A stretch of 34,987 nucleotides of DNA from Helicobacteraceae bacterium. Lineage in GTDB: Bacteria; Campylobacterota; Campylobacteria; Campylobacterales; Sulfurimonadaceae. Below the pieces are notes generated by a model, which saw only the letters and a program-made list of their open reading frames with translations, did no database searches and was not told the origin of the DNA. The stretch lies in the NCBI GenBank assembly GCA_013138865.1, contig WTBY01000076.1:1-34987 (forward strand), written 5' to 3'. A program made the translations under genes and the position numbers. This document shows positions 3,250-14,942 of this stretch, one piece after another; the first letter of the stretch is position 1, and every line of letters begins with the position of its first letter.

Positions 3250-3336
3250 TTATGTAAGGTAAATGATAAGTTCACCAAATAAAAATTCTAAACATTGATA
3301 GCACTTCATAAACATGAACAATATTTTAAAACTCAT
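3250..3336 (-). CDS. Possible 28-aa hydrophobic peptide downstream of 5S-like RNA
   Basis: On the minus strand, AAAGGA is followed 6 bases later by ATG and 28 codons. The product is hydrophobic, rich in Phe, Leu and Ile (begins MSFKILFMFMK), and could be one membrane helix. It begins 22 bases after the 3' end of the 5S-like domain, so the two could share a transcript. The good ribosome binding site is the main support; short open frames with such spacing also arise by chance in AT-rich DNA. Confidence 0.35.
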   Translation of the reverse strand: MSFKILFMFMKCYQCLEFLFGELIIYLT

Positions 3337-3358
3337 TTGTTTTCCTTTCACAACAGAC

Positions 3359-3476
3359 TCGTATCAACCTACGTTTCCATATTTGAAAAATACAGTATTA
3401 TCAGCGATATGTGTTTTCACTTCTTGGTTCGGAATGGTTCAAGGTGTTCAGTTGCATCCACACTCTATAGTTACGA
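3359..3476 (-). rRNA. Phage-borne 5S rRNA-like RNA (about 118 nt)
   Basis: Read on the minus strand, this segment has the full order of 5S rRNA elements. The loop C block CCATTCCGAACC is followed by AAGAAGTGAAAAC, close to the E. coli block. The loop E arms GCTGATAATACTG and GGAAACGTAGG are both present. Pairings visible by eye are helix I TCGTA with TACGA, plus a C-G pair after an A-A mismatch; helix II GTGTG with CACAT; helix III CTTG with CAAG; and the terminal hairpin TATTT with AAATA. Several helices use base pairs unlike the usual ones yet still pair, which suggests selection on structure rather than a copied or decaying host gene. It differs from canonical 5S in a loop B region about 7 bases longer and in AT-rich helices I and V. 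An intrinsic terminator lies immediately upstream on the same strand, so how it is transcribed is unclear. Confidence 0.8.
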
Positions 3477-3477
3477 C

Positions 3478-3510
3478 AAAAAAAAACCCCCACTAAATTA
3501 ATAGTGGAGG
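3478..3510 (-). terminator. Strong intrinsic terminator, minus strand
   Basis: The minus strand has a GC-rich 9-bp stem with one G-U pair, a 6-base loop (TTAATT) and a run of nine T. It ends 1-2 bases before the 5S-like domain begins. The plus strand has no T run after the stem, so the direction is clear. Confidence 0.85.
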
Positions 3511-3543
3511 TAAAGGAGAGTTGAAATAGGAATTGACAACTCT
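3478..3543 (-). ncRNA. Predicted small RNA ending in an intrinsic terminator
   Basis: On the minus strand, hairpin 1 is AGAGTTG (3543-3537) with CAACTCT (3523-3517). A C-rich linker (3511-3516) follows. Hairpin 2 has a 9-bp stem, CCTCCACTA (3510-3502) with TAGTGGGGG (3495-3487), and then nine T. The linker region reads CTCCTTTACCTCC, which is complementary to Shine-Dalgarno-like sequence. A TACAAT -10-like box lies upstream at 3561-3556. This is the build of a bacterial regulatory small RNA, but both transcription and target are inference. Confidence 0.5.
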
Positions 3544-3560
3544 ATAAGTTAAAATATTGT
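3533..3560 (+). promoter_or_regulatory. Sigma-70-type promoter upstream of the polyvalent operon
   Basis: A perfect -35 TTGACA (3533-3538), a 16-base spacer and a TATTGT -10 (3555-3560) are visible. It faces the 10-codon micro-ORF and the 1778-residue gene. The -35 lies within the arm and loop of the minus-strand small-RNA hairpin, so the two transcription directions would compete here. Confidence 0.5.
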
Positions 3561-3595
3561 AATCATTATCTGTGCTATCAAATAAAGGATATACA

Positions 3596-3628
3596 ATGAA
3601 AGTCAAAGAACTAATTTGGCTTCATTAG
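3596..3628 (+). CDS. Possible 10-aa leader peptide (MKVKELIWLH)
   Basis: AAAGGA is followed 5-6 bases later by ATG and ten codons ending in TAG. It lies between the two plus-strand promoters ahead of the polyvalent gene. It could be a leader peptide or a chance short frame. No terminator/antiterminator pair is obvious after it. Confidence 0.25.
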   Translation: MKVKELIWLH

Positions 3629-3691
3629 GCGTAGTATAACATCTAAATCTTAATTTTAACTGGGGAAATTGGGGGTTTAGCCTTTACATCA

Positions 3692-3752: not shown

Positions 3753-6700
3753 GTGAAAGTTGGAGATATATTCTCACAAGATGAGATTTTAGCATTACAA
3801 GCAGAGGGTCACGATAGAAAAGCTATTAATAAATTAGCGTCACAACAACATCGTACAAACATTAAAGCAACATCACAACAACCTCAAACTAAACCCACCC
3901 CTATTAAAGATTATATTTTAAACTCTGATGATACTGCTGCTAAAGTTGCACGTGGTCTTGGTACTACTGGTTTAAGAACTGTCTCAATGCTAGACTTTGG
4001 AGCTGAGAAACTTGGCTTTGATTTGAGTGACGATAAAAAAGTTGATACGCTTTTACAAAAGTTAGATGATAAAAAGGAGTCTACATCAAGAGCCACACTA
4101 CCCTCTGATCGTTTAGTTGAATTGGAACAACTAGATAGTGAGTCACAAAAAGCATCAAGCGTTTGGGATAATGTAAAAGCTGGTGCTAATAAGATGATAG
4201 ATGTTGCAACTCATCCGAGCGAGTGGACTACTCAAGGAGTCGTAGAGGGTACAACCGATCCACTTAACTTAGTTAGTTTTGGTGCTGGTAGTGTTGCTGC
4301 TAAATTTGGTACCACCCTACTCTCTAAAGTTGCATTTGGTGGTGGAGCTGGAGCTATTGAGGGTGCTGTTGTTAATAGTGCTGGTGAGTATGCAGTTGAG
4401 CGTGGTCGTGGTAAGAGTGAAGATGAAGCTACAAAGGTAGCTATTCAGTCTGCTAGTGGTGGTGCTGTTGCTGGTGCTTCTTTTGGTTCAATGGGTGGTG
4501 CATGGAATGGAGTTAATAAAACATCACAACAAAACCAAAACAATGTTAAAGAGACATCACAACAAAGTCAAGACGATATTTTAAGTAATCCCCTACTCCA
4601 TACAGATGAGCAACTAAATAACTCTATTGAAGATGGAATTATAAATGATCCTTTTTCAAAAGCTACACCAAAAGTAGATCCAAAGTTTGCTAAAGATGTA
4701 GTTTTTGAAGCTGAACCAAAAGAGCCTAACTTTACTTTAGTGCATGAAAATTTACCAGCAGTTTTAAATGAGTTGGTAAATGCTGAAATAGTAGAGGTAG
4801 AAGTTGCAAAAGCTATAGAAGCAAAACACACTATGCTTTTAGAGAATGATGCTCATGTTATGGACTTAAAAGGTTGGAGTGAGTCAATAGGTCAAGATGT
4901 AATCGATGCTATGAACTCACAAGCTATAAATAGAGTCAATGCAGTAGAGAAAGAAGCTAGAGAGTTTAAGGCTCGTGAGTCTCAACTTTTACAAGAGTTA
5001 GTATCTCAAGGGGCAAAACCTAGTGAAGTCAAAGAGCAGATTAATAACATACTTACTCCTAGTGAGAATGAGGCAAAAGTTACTCTTATTATTAATGATG
5101 GTAACGCTATAGAGAATAAATTTGCTGGTTGGAGACTTGGGGAGTATTTAGACGAGTCTATTAAGAACCCTCGTTTTGAAAAAGAGGAGTTTAACAACAT
5201 TCTAACTCAAGCTGGAGCTAGTGAGAACTTAGCAAAAGTTGCAAGTGATAGTTATGCTTCTAAAAATATTACACTCTTTGATGATTATGTAGCTAATGAG
5301 TTAGCTCATGCACAAGCCTTAGACAATGATGTGACTATGACTAATGTAAAAGGTGCTTTAGCCATTGATGATATTGAAACAACATCTAAACAATATCGTA
5401 ATAGTGTCGATACAATGTTAAAGCAACATCAAGAACATAAACAGTATAATGATTTATTGGACTTTACTAGAGAGCTTGAATATAGTGATACTCTCTATAA
5501 ACAAAATGAGGTAAGTGCTGGTAAGCTAGACGGAATTGACAACTATATAGATCCAACTTATGAGCCTAATTATGCTCATGGCTTTTCGCTTAGTAAAGCA
5601 AAAGTAAAAAGGATTGAAGAGGGTAGGGCAACACTTGAAGATTTGAATGATTTAAAAAACGACTTAGCTATAATGGAGCAAGATAAAAATTTCAACCCTC
5701 CTGAGCTAGAGAGTTTTGATGAGTTAGTAGCTAGACTAAATAAAGAGAGTCCAGCAAACAGTGAAGAGGCATTAAGCCTATTCGGAAATGAGGAGATATT
5801 AAATGACACAAATACCATACACAACTTGGAAAGAGATCGCACAGACTCAAGAGCTAATGACACCATTTATGATAGCAATGTTAAAGATGGAACAGCAGAG
5901 CTTTTTGACAACGATCGACTTAATATCAGAGGCTCTAATGAGCGAGTTGAAGATAGAGCAAAAAGTAGTGATAGCGTACCTAGAAGTGATACCTCTTCTA
6001 TTGGAGAGAGAAGCGATAACGAGTTACATCAACAAAACGAAACAGATGGATCTACGCAAGGTGCTAGTGGAAGTGAACACAGCGCAAGAAGCGATAGAGC
6101 TGATGAGACTAGAACATCGTTTAAGCGAGGAGCAGAGCAACCAGCTAACGAGAATGTTAACAAACGAGAAAGTAGTAAAAGCGATACGAGTAGTGATACA
6201 GATGGTATTAAGCAAGGTGGTAGTGGGTTAGACTTTGAACAGAAGTTAAAACTACAAGAGTTAGCCGATGAAATAGAGGTTAGCTTTGGTGATGAAGCTA
6301 ACATAGCTCGTACACTCCCTATACAACTCCCACACCAACACACAAATACACTCAAAGCTGAGAAGCGTTTTTTTCAAGATGGTAAAAAAGGCATGATGTT
6401 CACTGATGGCACTGGTACTGGAAAAACTTACACTGGTGCTGGAATAGCTAAGCGTTTTTTTAATGCAGACAAGAAAAACATACTTATTGTTACACCTACA
6501 GACATAAAAGTAAAAGACTGGATAGCAGACTCAAAAAACCTACAACTACCAATTACACAACTAAAAGGTATTAGCGATGCTGGAAGTGATGTTGTAGCTA
6601 CTACATACGCAAACTTTAGAGACAACAACGCACTACTAAAAAGAGATTTTGATTTGATAGTTTATGATGAGTCTCACTACATCATGCAAGATGGAAAAGG

Positions 6701-9089
6701 AAAAAGTACCTCTACAACTCAGCAACATTTACGTATTAGTAATGGTGGTGAGTTTCCTATTACTCAAAGAGCAGAGAGAAGAGTTATACCTGATGAGATA
6801 CTAGATGATCTTAGTAGTATAAATAAAGATATGAGTGATGAGAGAGTAGAGCAGATACGTTCACGCTACTGGGATGCTAAAAAAGAGTTGAGTGATGAGA
6901 TAGATGCTGAGATAGTTAAGATAAAAGAGAATGATGTAAAAGTTGTTTTTTTAAGTGCTACACCATTTAAAGGTCACTTCAATCTTGATTATGCGATGGG
7001 TTATCTTTTTGATGTTGGTGCAGAAGATGGCACAAGCTATAACAGTGGAAATGGACGTGATCGCTTTTACATAGAGAACTTTGGTTACAAGATGCGTTAC
7101 AACAAGCTTACTCGTCCTGATGCAGAAGTTAATGTTGCAGTTATGGAGCAACGCTTTAGTGACAAGCTAAAAGAGAGCGGTGCTATGAGTGGTTACACTA
7201 TGGATATACCTCAAGACTATTCACGTGAGTTTGTTAAGATAGGTTTAGATGATACCGATCGCATGAGTGAAGCTTTAGAGTCTGTTATGAATTATGATAA
7301 TAAAAAGTATGAAGATTTTAGAAAATTTGTAAATCATAGATTTTGGGATTATTTAGAGTCTAATCAGATGTATGAGGGTATGAAAGCTAAGTACTCTATA
7401 CCTCTAATTAAAAAACATTTAGACTCATCTAAGCAGATTATTATATTTCATAGGTATAACTCAGAGGCTACTACTGCACCCTTTAATTTTGCTAACTACT
7501 CGTATGTATCACGCTCAATGAATGGCAAAGAGAGCTTAGTTAGAATGGCTGATGATGACAAAGCTCTTGCTCAATATCAAGAGTTTAAAAAAGAGTTTAG
7601 TGATGTTGTTGGTATGGATGGCTTTGATACTGTTCAAGCTTCTATTAAAAAAGAGTTTGGTGATGATGTAGTTCTGTTTAATGGAAAAGTGCCTAAAGCT
7701 ACACGTGCTAAAAATGTTAAAGCATTTAATAGTGGTGCTAAAAAAATAATAATCATTCAAGAACAAGCTGGTAAAGAGGGTATAAGTCTGCATGACATAG
7801 ATGCTACAGCTCAAAGAGTGTTAATGAATTTTGCTCTACCTTATGATCCTATTGCTGGAATACAGATAGAGGGTCGTTCTTACAGACTTGGAACTAAGAG
7901 TGATGCAATATACCAGTACCCTATACTTGGCTTTAAGATAGAAGAGTATCAATTTGGCTCTATAATAAATAAGCGTTTAGGAACTACTGAAAATTTAGCA
8001 CTTGGAACTCAAGCAAGGGCTTTAGCTGATAGTTTCAAAGAGAGTTTTATGAACTCTATTGATGAGAGTGTAGCGCACTTGTCTCTTGGTAAAGGTGGTA
8101 AAGCACTTGACCGCAATAGAGTAGAGCTTAGTCAATGGGATCTAGCTATTAGTGACTACTTTACTAATGCTAAAAAAACATCTAAAAATAAAGCAAGTGA
8201 GGGAGCTGACTACTTCGCTACACCTGAGCCACTTGGTTTTAAAATGGTAGAGTGGGCTGACATTAAAAAAGGAAATGAAGTTTTAGAGCCTAGTGCTGGT
8301 CATGGTGCTATTGCTCGTTACTTTCCTGATGATACAACAAACAGAATGATAGAGCCTAGTAGCTCACTTGTAGGTAAACTAACTATGAGAGCTAGTGGTG
8401 ACATAGTTAATTCATCTTTTGAGTCTCATAACATTATTAATAAATATGACACTATTGTTATGAACCCTCCGTTTGGTACTGCTGGTAAAACAGCAATGGA
8501 TCATCTATCAAAAGCATACCAGCATCTAAAAGAGGGTGGACGTGTTGTTGCGATCATACCTGATGGTAACTCAATGAGAAAGCGTTTAGATAAGTGGCTC
8601 TATGCAGAGGATGAAAAAGGTAAGTTAACAAATAGTGCCTCTTTTGTTGCAGAGGTATTACTACCAGCTTCAACATTTGAGAGAGCTGGAACTAAAGTAA
8701 TAGGACGTGTTGTTATTATAGACAAGGCTGAGGCTGAATATACTAAAACTATAGACCTTAGAGATATTCAAAACAATAAAGAGTTATTTGAGCGTTTAGA
8801 GAATATGGAGTTACCAGCTAGAAAAATAATAGAAAAAGATGCTGAGTTAGATCTAGTTAAATTAGACCAGGCACTTAATGATGAACGTATTGAAATTGTT
8901 AGTGATGTTGACACACGTGATAACTCTACTCTTTATCTTGCAAAACTAAAAGAGCAGCTAGAACGTGCAGACTTTAACAGAGCAAGAGCTAAGGCTAAAG
9001 AGTTTGGTGGCTACTGGAGTAGTTTTAAAGAAGCGTTTATATTTAAAGATGAGAGTGCTGCTAATAAGTTTAAAAGTGAGGGTTGTTAA
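3753..9089 (+). CDS. DarB-like giant polyvalent protein: SF2 helicase plus N6-adenine DNA methyltransferase, 1778 aa
   Basis: The start is GTG with AAAGG 8 bases upstream. Domains in order: residues 1-35, a short module (VKVGDIFSQDE... DRKAI.KLAS) shared with the FliL-like protein at 14442-14942; about 165-250, a Gly/Ala-rich hydrophobic region; 260-680, helical, partly coiled coil; 684-826, a hydrophilic Ser/Asp/Arg/Asn-rich linker; 880-1450, a SNF2/SF2-type helicase with Walker A GTGTGKT (886-892), DESH (972-975), LSATPFKG and the late motif EGRSYRLG; 1490-1640, a methyltransferase with LEPSAGHG (from residue 1511) and NPPFG (1571-1575). Helicase-methyltransferase polyvalent proteins such as P1 DarB are packaged and enter the host with the DNA to blunt restriction. 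That family knowledge, plus the hydrophobic segment, suggests the same role here. Specificity cannot be read from sequence. A possible overprinted gene lies within the linker. Confidence 0.88.
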   Translation: MKVGDIFSQDEILALQAEGHDRKAINKLASQQHRTNIKATSQQPQTKPTPIKDYILNSDDTAAKVARGLGTTGLRTVSMLDFGAEKLGFDLSDDKKVDTLLQKLDDKKESTSRATLPSDRLVELEQLDSESQKASSVWDNVKAGANKMIDVATHPSEWTTQGVVEGTTDPLNLVSFGAGSVAAKFGTTLLSKVAFGGGAGAIEGAVVNSAGEYAVERGRGKSEDEATKVAIQSASGGAVAGASFGSMGGAWNGVNKTSQQNQNNVKETSQQSQDDILSNPLLHTDEQLNNSIEDGIINDPFSKATPKVDPKFAKDVVFEAEPKEPNFTLVHENLPAVLNELVNAEIVEVEVAKAIEAKHTMLLENDAHVMDLKGWSESIGQDVIDAMNSQAINRVNAVEKEAREFKARESQLLQELVSQGAKPSEVKEQINNILTPSENEAKVTLIINDGNAIENKFAGWRLGEYLDESIKNPRFEKEEFNNILTQAGASENLAKVASDSYASKNITLFDDYVANELAHAQALDNDVTMTNVKGALAIDDIETTSKQYRNSVDTMLKQHQEHKQYNDLLDFTRELEYSDTLYKQNEVSAGKLDGIDNYIDPTYEPNYAHGFSLSKAKVKRIEEGRATLEDLNDLKNDLAIMEQDKNFNPPELESFDELVARLNKESPANSEEALSLFGNEEILNDTNTIHNLERDRTDSRANDTIYDSNVKDGTAELFDNDRLNIRGSNERVEDRAKSSDSVPRSDTSSIGERSDNELHQQNETDGSTQGASGSEHSARSDRADETRTSFKRGAEQPANENVNKRESSKSDTSSDTDGIKQGGSGLDFEQKLKLQELADEIEVSFGDEANIARTLPIQLPHQHTNTLKAEKRFFQDGKKGMMFTDGTGTGKTYTGAGIAKRFFNADKKNILIVTPTDIKVKDWIADSKNLQLPITQLKGISDAGSDVVATTYANFRDNNALLKRDFDLIVYDESHYIMQDGKGKSTSTTQQHLRISNGGEFPITQRAERRVIPDEILDDLSSINKDMSDERVEQIRSRYWDAKKELSDEIDAEIVKIKENDVKVVFLSATPFKGHFNLDYAMGYLFDVGAEDGTSYNSGNGRDRFYIENFGYKMRYNKLTRPDAEVNVAVMEQRFSDKLKESGAMSGYTMDIPQDYSREFVKIGLDDTDRMSEALESVMNYDNKKYEDFRKFVNHRFWDYLESNQMYEGMKAKYSIPLIKKHLDSSKQIIIFHRYNSEATTAPFNFANYSYVSRSMNGKESLVRMADDDKALAQYQEFKKEFSDVVGMDGFDTVQASIKKEFGDDVVLFNGKVPKATRAKNVKAFNSGAKKIIIIQEQAGKEGISLHDIDATAQRVLMNFALPYDPIAGIQIEGRSYRLGTKSDAIYQYPILGFKIEEYQFGSIINKRLGTTENLALGTQARALADSFKESFMNSIDESVAHLSLGKGGKALDRNRVELSQWDLAISDYFTNAKKTSKNKASEGADYFATPEPLGFKMVEWADIKKGNEVLEPSAGHGAIARYFPDDTTNRMIEPSSSLVGKLTMRASGDIVNSSFESHNIINKYDTIVMNPPFGTAGKTAMDHLSKAYQHLKEGGRVVAIIPDGNSMRKRLDKWLYAEDEKGKLTNSASFVAEVLLPASTFERAGTKVIGRVVIIDKAEAEYTKTIDLRDIQNNKELFERLENMELPARKIIEKDAELDLVKLDQALNDERIEIVSDVDTRDNSTLYLAKLKEQLERADFNRARAKAKEFGGYWSSFKEAFIFKDESAANKFKSEGC
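5803..6231 (+). CDS. Candidate overprinted 142-aa gene inside the polyvalent linker
   Basis: A GAGGAG motif lies 7 bases before ATG at 5803. The frame, offset from the host gene, stays open for 142 codons and gives a helical, Leu/Met/Ile/Glu-rich protein (starts MTQIPYTTWKEIAQ) with a normal mix of residues. Its limits match residues 684-826 of the polyvalent protein, the only long low-complexity Ser/Asp/Arg stretch there. That is the pattern expected when one frame constrains another. Against it, third positions in this frame are purine-rich rather than A/T-rich, so the polyvalent frame still looks primary. I see no other same-strand overlapping frame of this length in the 5.3-kb gene. Confidence 0.35.
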   Translation: MTQIPYTTWKEIAQTQELMTPFMIAMLKMEQQSFLTTIDLISEALMSELKIEQKVVIAYLEVIPLLLEREAITSYINKTKQMDLRKVLVEVNTAQEAIELMRLEHRLSEEQSNQLTRMLTNEKVVKAIRVVIQMVLSKVVVG

Positions 9090-9091
9090 TT

Positions 9092-11812
9092 ATGGCTAGA
9101 TGTAAGAGCAAGAAGTTAGAAGAGTTTTTAGATGATGAGTTAGCGCACCTAAAGAAGAACCCTTTTAATGGTGTAAAGTTTACTAAAGAGGATAGAGCAA
9201 AAATATTAAACTCTCTAAGAGTTCAGTTAGAACGCCCATTAAGTAAAGAAGAGTTAAACATCTTTAATGTTTCAGTTGGTGAAAAGAAGAGTGCTGAGAT
9301 TAAAACATCTACTTTAGATGGTCTTAGAATACTTTTACGAGAGGGAACTCGTGATGATGGAATGAAGCATATCATCAAAAGACACTTTGGAGAAAATGGT
9401 GACAAGAATGGTGGACGTATAGACTATATAGATATTATTAAGATAGGTGACATTATTAGAAGTAGTGAACCTACACTTCAAAATAATGGTCGCTATAAGT
9501 TTAGTATGGTTTTAGATGCTAAGAAGTATTTGGTAATTGTAGATAAAAGCGAAAATATGGGTTTTGTATATACTCTTTATACAGATGATAAATTCGATGT
9601 AAATGAAGTTGGCGATCTCAATGATACTACCCTAAAGACCGACCAATTTGTCGACTCCGATACCACACTAGATAGTGGTACTTCAACTTCATCTACTTCT
9701 AGTAAAGGTAGTATGACACGAAAAGGCTTTGTTAATTCTGATATTTTTAACTTACCTTATGCTAAATATAAAGAGTGGATTGAGTCAAATGTTGATAGAG
9801 GGTTTGACTTTTTAAGTGAGAAACTAGAGGTGCTTAATGAAAAGTTTGACTCTCATAATATGCTCACAACGTCTAAAGCTCAAAAGGATCTACACAACAT
9901 AGTTAAAGAGTATGAGATAGAGTCTAACAACATCTACACTCAAGCTGGTGAACTTAAAAGCTCACTAGAGGGCTTACATAAAGATGATGGTGAAAACATA
10001 GTACGTGCTTTAAATGGTGACTTAGATCCTTTTGAGTTGAGTGATAATCATAAGGCTATTTACGATCGCTTTAGAGACGTAATAGACAAAAATGCTGATG
10101 AGCTTGTAGAAGCTGGGGCATTGAATGAGAAGAGTAGGGTACAAGACTATGTTAAACGCTACTATGAGAAGCACTTAGAGACTCAAAGTTTAGTAAGTAA
10201 GATGTTTACACATAAGCGTTTTGAAAAGCGTAAGAACCTCACTTATGATGAGAGAATAGCTTTAGGTATGGTAGAAGATGCAAGTTTTGTTATTCCTAAA
10301 ACAATAGCAGAGCAAAAAGCACAACTACTAAAAGCAAACACACTCAAGTCTATAGCTGATCGCTTTGCAAAAGATGAAGAGTTTGAGGGTAGTGTACTTG
10401 TGAGCAATGAGAGTGTTGGTGGTGGTATTTTCAAGTATGGCGCACTTGCTGGTAAGTATGTAAGAGCTGATATTTTTAAGAGTGTTAATGAGGCTCAACT
10501 TGCTGGTGATGTTATGAGTGGGTTTGGTCGTGCATGGTTTCAACTAATAGATCATATAAAAGTAAATGTTACTGTTAAGAACCCTGTTACACATCTTTAC
10601 AACATAGGTTCTAATGTTCTACTAGCTGGACTCAATGGTGACTTAGTTCACTTAGCTAAAGTTATGCACATGGCTAAGTCTGATAAAAAAGGTTTTAATG
10701 ATCTACTTACAAAAGCTAATAAGCATGGTTTAAATAGCTCTCGTGATGATTATGAGGGTTTGGGTGCTGTTCTTGATAACGAGAAGCCTAACGTGCTTAA
10801 AACTATTATGAGTAACCTTTATTTAACTCAAAGCTCTAAAGCTGGTAAAGGTGTTAGAAAACTTTATGACTGGGAAGATAAGATTTTCAAACTTGCATCT
10901 ATGAAGAGACACTTAGACGATGGAAAGAGTGAACTTGATGCTTACAACTTAGCGAGTGAAGTCTATGTTGATTACTCTACACCACTACCTACTGCTGTAA
11001 AGATGGTTGACAAGAGTGGAGTTATGCCATTTTTACACTATGTATGGAAGTCAACACCAGCAACAACAAAGGTGATCGCAAAAAACCCTATTAAATATAT
11101 TGTTATGCAGAGTGCTATGGTTACGCTTGGAGCTAGTGCATTGTTTAATGAGAATGATGATGATTATAAACCTAAGTGGGCTGAGGATAAAGCTAACCTA
11201 TTTGGAACTAAAGAGTGGGTTAACTTAGGTAATGGGTACTACTTAAATGCTGGACGTATGATACCAGCTATGAAGTTTGGAGGCTTAGACCTTAGTTTTG
11301 ATACTGGTTTTGGTTTTGTTGGTGGCGCTGTAAATATTGCTCAAGGTAAAACTCCACTTGGCTATGATATTGCTGGTAAGTACGATAGTGGTTTAGAGAA
11401 GCTTACTAAAAAATCTCTTGCACTTATGGAAAACTATCTACCTCCTTTAACATTTGGTCGTTATGGTCAACGTACTGCTCAAGTAGCATTAAGTGAAGCT
11501 GGAGTTTTAGACAAGCCCAAAAAGAACTATTATGATGAAGACATGAGTATTGCAGAGATAGCTCAAAGAGGTGTAGGTGTTAGACGTTTTAATGAAGAAA
11601 AAGAGTTACAAGAAAAAGCAACTGAGGCTAATACAGTTAGAAAGTACAAGAATAAAACAGAGCCTAAAGCTAAAAGGGTAACTGAAAAAGCGTACAGAGA
11701 AACTATGAGTAAACTCAAAACGTCTGCTCGTCAAAAAGGTAAAAAGTTAGTTGATAAAAAGAAGAAAAAATCTACTGGAAGAGTCTCAATTAAACCTCGT
11801 TTTAACATTTAA
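9092..11812 (+). CDS. Large polyvalent protein with PBECR nuclease-like and LPD38-like regions, 906 aa
   Basis: I chose ATG at 9092 because GAGGG lies 9 bases upstream; a TTG at 9083 is possible. Residues about 70-170, with GMKHIIKRHF and a following IIKIGDII, resemble the phage Barnase-EndoU-ColicinE5/D-RelE (PBECR) nuclease-like domain of polyvalent proteins. Residues about 485-650 (NPVTHLYNIGSN, LYDWEDKIFKLASM, PFLHYVWKST) match my memory of the LPD38 domain of podovirus internal proteins. The C-terminus, from about 850, is very basic (KKLVDKKKKKSTGR) and may bind DNA. It starts 3 bases after the helicase-methyltransferase and probably shares its transcript and packaging. The domain names are recall, not a search. 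Confidence 0.8.
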   Translation: MARCKSKKLEEFLDDELAHLKKNPFNGVKFTKEDRAKILNSLRVQLERPLSKEELNIFNVSVGEKKSAEIKTSTLDGLRILLREGTRDDGMKHIIKRHFGENGDKNGGRIDYIDIIKIGDIIRSSEPTLQNNGRYKFSMVLDAKKYLVIVDKSENMGFVYTLYTDDKFDVNEVGDLNDTTLKTDQFVDSDTTLDSGTSTSSTSSKGSMTRKGFVNSDIFNLPYAKYKEWIESNVDRGFDFLSEKLEVLNEKFDSHNMLTTSKAQKDLHNIVKEYEIESNNIYTQAGELKSSLEGLHKDDGENIVRALNGDLDPFELSDNHKAIYDRFRDVIDKNADELVEAGALNEKSRVQDYVKRYYEKHLETQSLVSKMFTHKRFEKRKNLTYDERIALGMVEDASFVIPKTIAEQKAQLLKANTLKSIADRFAKDEEFEGSVLVSNESVGGGIFKYGALAGKYVRADIFKSVNEAQLAGDVMSGFGRAWFQLIDHIKVNVTVKNPVTHLYNIGSNVLLAGLNGDLVHLAKVMHMAKSDKKGFNDLLTKANKHGLNSSRDDYEGLGAVLDNEKPNVLKTIMSNLYLTQSSKAGKGVRKLYDWEDKIFKLASMKRHLDDGKSELDAYNLASEVYVDYSTPLPTAVKMVDKSGVMPFLHYVWKSTPATTKVIAKNPIKYIVMQSAMVTLGASALFNENDDDYKPKWAEDKANLFGTKEWVNLGNGYYLNAGRMIPAMKFGGLDLSFDTGFGFVGGAVNIAQGKTPLGYDIAGKYDSGLEKLTKKSLALMENYLPPLTFGRYGQRTAQVALSEAGVLDKPKKNYYDEDMSIAEIAQRGVGVRRFNEEKELQEKATEANTVRKYKNKTEPKAKRVTEKAYRETMSKLKTSARQKGKKLVDKKKKKSTGRVSIKPRFNI

Positions 11813-14232: not shown

Positions 14233-14449
14233 AGATAAATTTGCAGTATTAGAAGAGTCGCAAGTTAAAGATGAGTTTGTAGAGGGTTCTGCTCTTAAAG
14301 AGACAAAAACAAAAGCAGCAAAAAAAACTATTCAGATACATGGAATGAATGTTGAGTTAGCAGATGCGATCGTAGCAAGTGGTGAAAGCTTTAGCAACTT
14401 TGCAAAAAGAGCTATTCGTAAACTAGCTCTTGAAGAGGGAATTATTTAA
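14225..14449 (+). CDS. Ribbon-helix-helix ParB-like centromere-binding protein, 74 aa
   Basis: I prefer ATG at 14225, which overlaps the parA stop by 8 bases; a TTG at 14216 is in frame. Residues 1-30 are charged and flexible. Residues 33-74 look like a ribbon-helix-helix fold: strand KKTIQIHGM, helix VELADAIVASG, then SFSNFAKRAIRKLALEEG. This matches the small partners of short ParA proteins, in which the flexible N-terminus stimulates the ATPase and the RHH dimer binds repeated parS boxes. The likely target is the TAACAT array upstream of parA. Confidence 0.75.
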   Translation: MGKDKFAVLEESQVKDEFVEGSALKETKTKAAKKTIQIHGMNVELADAIVASGESFSNFAKRAIRKLALEEGII

Positions 14450-14453
14450 TTCC
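14438..14453. terminator. Small hairpin overlapping two convergent stop codons
   Basis: GGAATTA (14438-14444) and TAATTCC (14447-14453) form a 7-bp stem over the stops of the RHH gene and the convergent FliL-like gene, extendable past a bulge by AGAG/CTCT. The loop is only 2 bases in a strict fold and no T run follows, so its role as a terminator is uncertain. Confidence 0.35.
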
Positions 14454-14942
14454 TCTCCTATCTAGCTCTTCATTAACAGCTTCACGTATTTCCTCACTTA
14501 TACTTTTTACGATTAAAAAATGAGTTATGTATATATTGGTATCAAGCTTCAACGAATTTCTTATTTGAGCTTTTAGTTTAGCCTTGCCCTTAGTTGTTGA
14601 AATCTCCTCTATTGACTTTGAACTTAATAATCTCAATAGTGTATCTTTTGCTATTGCAGCAGGAACTTTTGCATCTATAGAGAAACATGAGTCAAGTTGT
14701 TGCTTTTTGTAACTGGATATGTTTACAGACAAACAAATATCTTGTAAATTATTTGCTTCTTTTAGTAGTGGACTAGTTGATTTTTTATGACTTCGATGTT
14801 TAATAGATGCTAACTTACCTATTGCTTTACGATCATAGCCTTGCTCTTGTAGTTCTATTATTTCATCTTCTGAAAATATATCACCTACTTTAACTGCGAA
14901 CAACAAAGAACTTGCAAATAGAATACTTATTATATATTTCAT
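14442..14942 (-). CDS. Exported FliL-like protein, 166 aa (probable moron)
   Basis: Residues 1-16 are a signal peptide (MKYIISILFASSLLFA). Residues 17-46, VKVGDIFSEDEIIEL... DRKAIGKLAS, match the N-terminus of the 1778-residue polyvalent protein. Residues about 66-147 resemble the periplasmic domain of flagellar FliL: DTLLRLLSSKSIEEI, then GKAKLK, then ITHFLIVKS, in the same order and spacing. FliL is a membrane-anchored partner of flagellar stators; here the anchor is replaced by a cleavable-looking signal and a phage module. The gene stands alone against its neighbours with its own TATAAT promoter, as in lysogenic-conversion genes. An effect on host motility or on superinfection is inference. 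Confidence 0.72.
   Translation of the reverse strand: MKYIISILFASSLLFAVKVGDIFSEDEIIELQEQGYDRKAIGKLASIKHRSHKKSTSPLLKEANNLQDICLSVNISSYKKQQLDSCFSIDAKVPAAIAKDTLLRLLSSKSIEEISTTKGKAKLKAQIRNSLKLDTNIYITHFLIVKSISEEIREAVNEELDRRGIK

Follow-up and report, generated by a model that had tools for sequence, protein, structure and literature searches.

The pre-mRNA of plant TFIIIA carries a mimic of 5S rRNA that is bound by ribosomal protein L5 (Hammond et al. 2009, cited in PMC5972288), an analogy which shows that regulatory 5S mimicry within an mRNA is possible. Bacterial ribosomal-protein autoregulatory leaders similarly mimic an rRNA binding site in an mRNA leader, and in Helicobacter pylori the Shine-Dalgarno sequence (SD) of the type I toxin mRNA aapA3 is sequestered by RNA structure (PMC6733600). 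Among phage proteins, PhiKZ014 clamps the free end of 5S rRNA on the 50S subunit (PMC10914614). Here, we describe a 5S rRNA-like domain on the minus strand of contig WTBY01000076.1 (assembly GCA_013138865.1, Helicobacteraceae bacterium), whose 34,987 nt are hereafter named the window. In this element and in at least eleven kin among the phages and prophages of Campylobacterales, 12 loci being compared here, the same parts follow each other in constant order: a promoter-like box, a leader, a terminator ending in nine T (T9), the 5S-like domain, an SD, and an open reading frame (ORF) for a hydrophobic peptide. We therefore take the domain to belong to a regulatory mRNA leader. The reading that we favour, tentatively, is that this phage-borne leader is probably bound through its 5S mimic by 5S-binding ribosomal proteins, and so may gate the translation of a toxin-like membrane peptide.

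The element has the length, the five helices and the loop C and E sequences of 5S rRNA (Rfam family RF00001), and reaches the gathering score of that family. It differs from it by its place in an apparent mRNA leader, after a terminator and before an SD and ORF, by its diverged helices, and by the absence of an rrn operon: no 23S gene is near any of the 12 elements, which are thus not encoded as rRNA genes. With the plant TFIIIA mimic, as cited above, it would share regulatory 5S mimicry within an mRNA; the plant RNA is eukaryotic and acts on splicing, whereas the phage element is a near-complete 5S fold beside a short peptide ORF. With ribosomal-protein leaders it would share the mimicry of an rRNA binding site, here a presumed one, loops C and E and the five helices being conserved; but the downstream ORF encodes a tiny hydrophobic peptide (23-40 aa), and in none of the 12 a ribosomal protein. 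The type I toxin-antitoxin mRNA aapA3 also comes from Campylobacterota and encodes a short hydrophobic peptide. Its SD is hidden by RNA structure, as may be the case in our family, where the pairing is clear for the 12 elements combined but weak in several single ones, the window included; the leader described here additionally holds a terminator and a 5S domain.

In the window, RF00001 matched positions 3478-3356 over its whole length (model 1-120 of 120) with 41.6 bits, against a gathering score of 38. The E value was 1.8e-5 when all Rfam families were searched, none of which gave another match to the window at gathering score, and 3.6e-7 in a whole-genome search. A covariance model built from ten Campylobacterales host 5S genes (R1) gave 64.8 bits (E 1.6e-15). 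No DNA similarity of the 5S-like segment to phage and plasmid records was found, and the best identity to the 5S of related hosts was 74% of aligned positions. The original prediction, made from the sequence of the window, had seen here a phage-encoded 5S-like RNA with the loop C block and both loop E arms in 5S order, compensatory base choices in the helices and a loop B about 7 nt longer than usual. Each of these points is borne out, the longer loop B being a 7-nt insertion. The Rfam search and the comparisons with related phages and host 5S genes that it had proposed also agree with it: the gathering score was exceeded, covariation was found, and near identity to host 5S was looked for but not seen, either between the window and related hosts or between five elements and the 5S of their own host. 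It had overlooked the parts that flank the domain on the same minus strand: the intrinsic terminator immediately upstream (3511-3478), and the SD with its small hydrophobic ORF just downstream (3348-3250).

Beyond the window, the same order was seen in an IMG/VR siphophage fragment (L110). Further low-scoring but full-length 5S matches with this order were present in Arcobacteraceae genomes, where they were conspicuous because a complete genome such as that of G210 has, in addition, normal 5S genes scoring 92.5 bits. A DNA pattern consisting of a T-run followed by loop C was then scanned over 228 Arcobacteraceae genomes, and was found in eight of them, versus one for the reversed pattern used as a control. 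Once ordinary rrn copies were removed, three more elements were detected in other Campylobacterales families. With L110, this brings the total to 12 independent loci in several Campylobacterales families, the survey for the full architecture having covered Campylobacterales hosts. A final, stricter pattern scan of viral sequence gave no further element. Several candidates were discarded: a 20-mer in L052 and the sequences L166 and L167 were chance matches in other sequence, L169, L170 and L171 were ordinary host rrn 5S genes with a T7 in the spacer, and the IMG/VR records G240 and G264 had host rRNA/tRNA flanks; G244 and G247, also from IMG/VR, were set aside because their contexts were unclear. 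Conversely, L011 (G008), taken for a host 5S, proved to be an element.

All 12 elements reach the Rfam gathering score (40.8-79.7 bits), and in all of them a hairpin is followed by a run of exactly nine T. In every element, a putative -10-like box, identified by consensus match, precedes the hairpin by 80-180 nt. Likewise, 101-146 nt past the start of loop C, each has an SD that precedes an ORF of 23-40 codons, whose GRAVY is 1.03-2.17. Positions drawn at random from the same phage DNA satisfied the corresponding rule (SD plus ORF of 23-40 aa, GRAVY at least 1.0, at element spacing) in 0.9% of cases, and shuffled downstream sequences in 0.7%; a small control with ordinary 5S genes gave 0/5, too few to be informative. 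Peptides are clearly alike within the pairs G189/G233, G210/G123 and L110/G008, and a Pfam scan of ten peptides gave no significant match. Phage genes adjoin 11 of the 12 elements. They encode tape measure and antirepressor (L110), portal and antirepressor (G233), portal and major head proteins of the same families as those of the window (G138), terminase and integrase (G441), replisome organiser and endolysin (G613), an O-like replication protein (G087), or a CI-like repressor (G008, G189 and G509, with replication or integrase genes as well in G008 and G509). G210 has an integrase and transposases as neighbours, and the neighbours of the twelfth element, G123, belong solely to phage families of unknown function. 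The elements of G210 and G509 are in complete genomes.

We next compared the 12 domains at the level of base pairs, using an alignment to the model (A5) which, being fitted to the structure, is biased towards the fold. Standard pairs occupied 90.2% of 429 base-pair cells, compared to 69.2% in shuffles, both sides had changed in 24 of 36 pairs, and the covariation score was 0.662 versus 0.227 in shuffles. None of 500 shuffles attained any of the five fold measures, and sliding the structure along the alignment brought paired cells down to 34-43%. Host 5S genes gave the same kind of figures (95.0% paired, covariation 0.520). For the five elements that were compared to the 5S of their own host, identity was 61-84%; the most distant, in G210 (61%), showed 14 compensated pairs and 1 broken, and the one in G613 showed 11 and 1. 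The 5S fold of the elements is thus under selection, and such covariation argues that these RNAs are neither chance similarities nor decaying copies.

Conservation is uneven along the molecule. The loop C and E positions that hosts conserve are mostly kept in 11 or 12 of the 12 elements, whereas the helix I sequence drifts and C106 of loop A is retained in only 5. Agreement with the host consensus is 46-74% at paired positions and 77-93% at unpaired ones. In the ribosome, loop C with helix III and loop E with helix IV are the contact sites of proteins uL5, uL18 and bL25. An unusual loop E base in the 5S of the G087 host (GCTCATAATACTG) recurs in the G087 element, which fits either matching to a host protein or capture from that host. 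A small tree separated most elements from host 5S genes, at modest support. Overall, the anatomy of the element, i.e. its order, the conservation of fold and loops, the ORF and the phage context, is well supported.

Pairing between the leader and the SD region was evaluated by matching the 35 nt ahead of the hairpin to the segment from the end of the 5S domain to the start codon. Over the 12 elements, it was stronger than in shuffles (Fisher combined p 1.4e-9), individually clear in L110, G210, G008, G087 and G509 (p below 0.01), and it covered the SD in many members. In the centroid fold of the window, UCCUUU (3517-3512) pairs with the SD AAAGGA (3348-3343), enclosing the terminator and the 5S domain (Table 1).

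Taken together, these features suggest how the element might work. From the promoter, a leader RNA some 100-180 nt long would be made, and the terminator would probably halt most transcription, as its strong hairpin and T9 lead us to infer. Read-through would append the 5S mimic, the SD and the ORF. The terminator-side strand of the leader would then form, with a segment of the SD region, a helix enclosing terminator and mimic and hiding the SD in many members. The peptide would thereby be silent by default, through termination and SD pairing, a first half of the scheme which rests on sequence evidence, with a pairing that is statistical over the family. The trigger and direction of the second half are more conjectural. 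Free uL5, uL18 and bL25 may bind the mimic, or it may dock as a 5S-like ribonucleoprotein; these proteins appear the most likely trigger because their known binding sites correspond to what the mimic conserves at its surface, namely helix III, loop C, helix IV and loop E. They would become more abundant in free form upon failure of rRNA synthesis or ribosome assembly, for instance when another phage shuts off the host or a prophage is induced, and their binding would remodel the enclosing helix, freeing a type-I-toxin-like membrane peptide. We infer that the locus is transcribed, that termination occurs, that proteins bind, which way the switch works and that the peptide is toxic. It is conceivable, if doubtful, that Campylobacterota phages possess a family of sensor RNAs of this kind, in which a complete 5S mimic would read the pool of free 5S-binding ribosomal proteins, and hence how ribosome assembly is faring; a membrane-active peptide would be released once host ribosome production collapses, e.g. 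as an anti-phage or prophage-exit alarm.

Several observations weigh against such a switch. In all 12 elements the terminator precedes the 5S domain, while a usual riboswitch or attenuator has its sensor first; because of this position, the domain cannot control the terminator in the usual riboswitch order. The stability of the window RNA is not unusual (z -0.44), its leader/SD duplex taken alone is not significant (p 0.12), and in unconstrained folds the SD is wholly paired to the leader in only 4 of the 12 elements. The peptides, all of them short, resemble one another only loosely when taken as a set. Finally, a further difference from type I toxin-antitoxin mRNAs is that no antisense antitoxin RNA gene was identified, no search for antisense promoters having been made.

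Free-standing 5S genes do exist in other phages. Bacteroides LoVEphage, a 71-kb gut phage, has an internal one scoring 76.4 bits and followed by a terminator-like hairpin (L101 6000-6110 in OY731433; 36339-36445 in MW660583). It corresponds to a barrnap call in one record and is overlaid by a 'DUF2724' ORF in the other, and a search of the text of the LoVEphage paper found no mention of 5S or rRNA. Two Vibrio cyclitrophicus phages (10N.237.312.G08_PE003 and 1F53_PE003) contain an unannotated internal one, at 89.8 bits; in this 32-kb P2-like phage (L103 10681-10796), a strong terminator follows the gene and no 23S match was found in the stretch. These genes share with our elements a 5S-like RNA in a phage genome, but they end in their own terminator and are devoid of the peptide module. 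They fit better than the window with a phage ribosomal 5S as imagined in the original prediction. In contrast, the 5S of Paenibacillus phage Pd_22F (MZ092003) was rejected: it is in a host-type 23S-5S stretch at about 82-85 kb, with a complete 23S beside phage genes, and the record is probably chimaeric, including DNA from a host rRNA operon. Most remaining INPHARED 5S matches were bacterial contigs or host DNA at record ends.

How else could the element be read? A genuine alternative 5S rRNA, excised and built into host ribosomes where it would replace or compete with host 5S, might be expected from the full-length fold, the Rfam score, the conserved loops C and E, and the precedent of LoVEphage and Vibrio PE003. 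Yet no terminator directly follows the domain, which precedes an SD and ORF in all 12 elements, an intrinsic terminator stands immediately upstream, and helix I, loop A and loop B drift, up to the 7-nt insertion of the window. We consider it quite improbable, and replacement or competition in ribosomes, as first proposed for this RNA, is not supported, since the domain is embedded in a leader in all 12 elements and normal 5S genes persist in the hosts whose genomes are complete. Much the same presumed protein-binding surface would serve a decoy acting in trans, the read-through RNA titrating 5S-binding ribosomal proteins or a phage or host 5S-binding factor while the peptide is a passenger; PhiKZ014 indicates that 5S is a real target in phage biology. 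Such a sponge has to be abundant, whereas the position of the terminator would hold read-through low, and it leaves the constant linkage to SD and peptide unexplained, which makes it improbable in our view. Titration of L5, L18 and L25, another of the initial suggestions, may nevertheless apply, being close to the cis-acting version that we favour.

A somewhat better, though still unlikely, explanation is an RNA-processing or stability device. The 5S fold would recruit 5S maturation nucleases or shield the mRNA, parting the leader RNA from the peptide mRNA, and the terminated leader would act as an antisense to the SD in the manner of type I toxin systems. The leader strand complementary to the SD region would indeed be free in the terminated RNA, and type I toxin mRNAs are known to be controlled by processing, but this alone fails to explain why loops C and E, known for their protein contacts and not as nuclease sites, are so strictly conserved. 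As for a captured host 5S fragment or attachment-site relic devoid of function, the latter also evoked in the original prediction, it would agree with the sporadic presence of the element and with relatives of the window phage that lack it. We nevertheless reject the attachment-site idea, and hold a functionless relic of either kind to be very improbable, in view of the strong covariation and loop conservation across the 12 elements, most of them apart from host genes in the tree; the domain is full length, under selection, far from the integrase, and has the same architecture in unrelated phages. An assembly artefact or a recent capture from the host is ruled out by the circular contig, the covariation and the divergence.

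Table 1. Parts of the element in the window, listed from the promoter side to the peptide ORF.
Feature	Positions	Strand	Basis
Putative extended -10 promoter box TGTTATACT	3633..3641	-	Consensus match; 121 nt upstream of terminator hairpin
Leader RNA region, about 115 nt, ending beside the terminator	3512..3632	-	Lies between -10-like box and terminator hairpin
Anti-SD strand UCCUUU of the enclosing helix (P1 5' strand)	3512..3517	-	Pairs with AAAGGA 3348-3343 in centroid fold
Intrinsic terminator hairpin ACCUCCACUAUUAAUUUAGUGGGGGUU and T9 (3486-3478), abutting the 5S-like domain	3478..3511	-	dG about -15 kcal/mol; predicted
5S rRNA-like domain, 123 nt, with 7-nt insertion in loop B	3356..3478	-	RF00001 41.6 bits; R1 64.8 bits; covariation in 12 elements
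SD AAAGGA of the peptide ORF	3343..3348	-	Sequence; 6 nt ahead of start codon
28-aa hydrophobic ORF MSFKILFMFMKCYQCLEFLFGELIIYLT, GRAVY 1.23	3250..3336	-	SD and ORF rule satisfied in 12/12 elements

The ends of the contig overlap directly by 127 bp, and the window thus represents a complete circular phage-like genome of 34,860 bp. Its genes encode a terminase large subunit (TerL), a portal-type head-tail adaptor, a major head protein, a primase, ParA and a tyrosine recombinase. Because the relatives of its proteins are in Arcobacteraceae and other Campylobacterota, the host most likely belongs to the family Arcobacteraceae. In the remainder of the host assembly, neither a further 5S nor any 23S was found, so that a comparison with the 5S of its own host was impossible; rRNA operons are commonly lost from short-read assemblies, which accounts for this gap. 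The 5S-like domain was not found in relatives of the window phage (L053, L054, G074:C19, L105 and L107-L109), and the element therefore looks like mobile or often-lost cargo. In L053, the orthologous gap (3981-4600) is devoid of the 5S domain, yet contains an SD and a short hydrophobic ORF (MELFILIVNFIWSIAQIIVYFTK). Elsewhere in the window, a protein with a FliL-like (flagellar basal body) domain is phage-encoded (14442-14942, minus strand), and two very large proteins of 1778 aa (helicase and methyltransferase-like domains; 3753-9089) and 909 aa (9083-11812), both on the plus strand, are kept in related phages; they are possibly injected or DNA-protection proteins.

Searches of an open paper library for phage-encoded or 5S-mimic RNAs gave no account of such elements, nor of any class of phage RNA built on the 5S rRNA fold, an absence which is no proof, and the arrangement of a 5S-mimic leader in phages and prophages appears undescribed so far. 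Rfam labels these loci only as 5S rRNA, and annotation pipelines would therefore misname them. With this family, phage biology also gains a set of very short, predicted membrane peptides. Should uL5, uL18 or bL25 bind the mimic, the behaviour of phages and prophages would be tied to ribosome assembly via RNA mimicry, and the elements would provide an easy genetic means of probing the poorly understood role that 5S rRNA and its proteins play.
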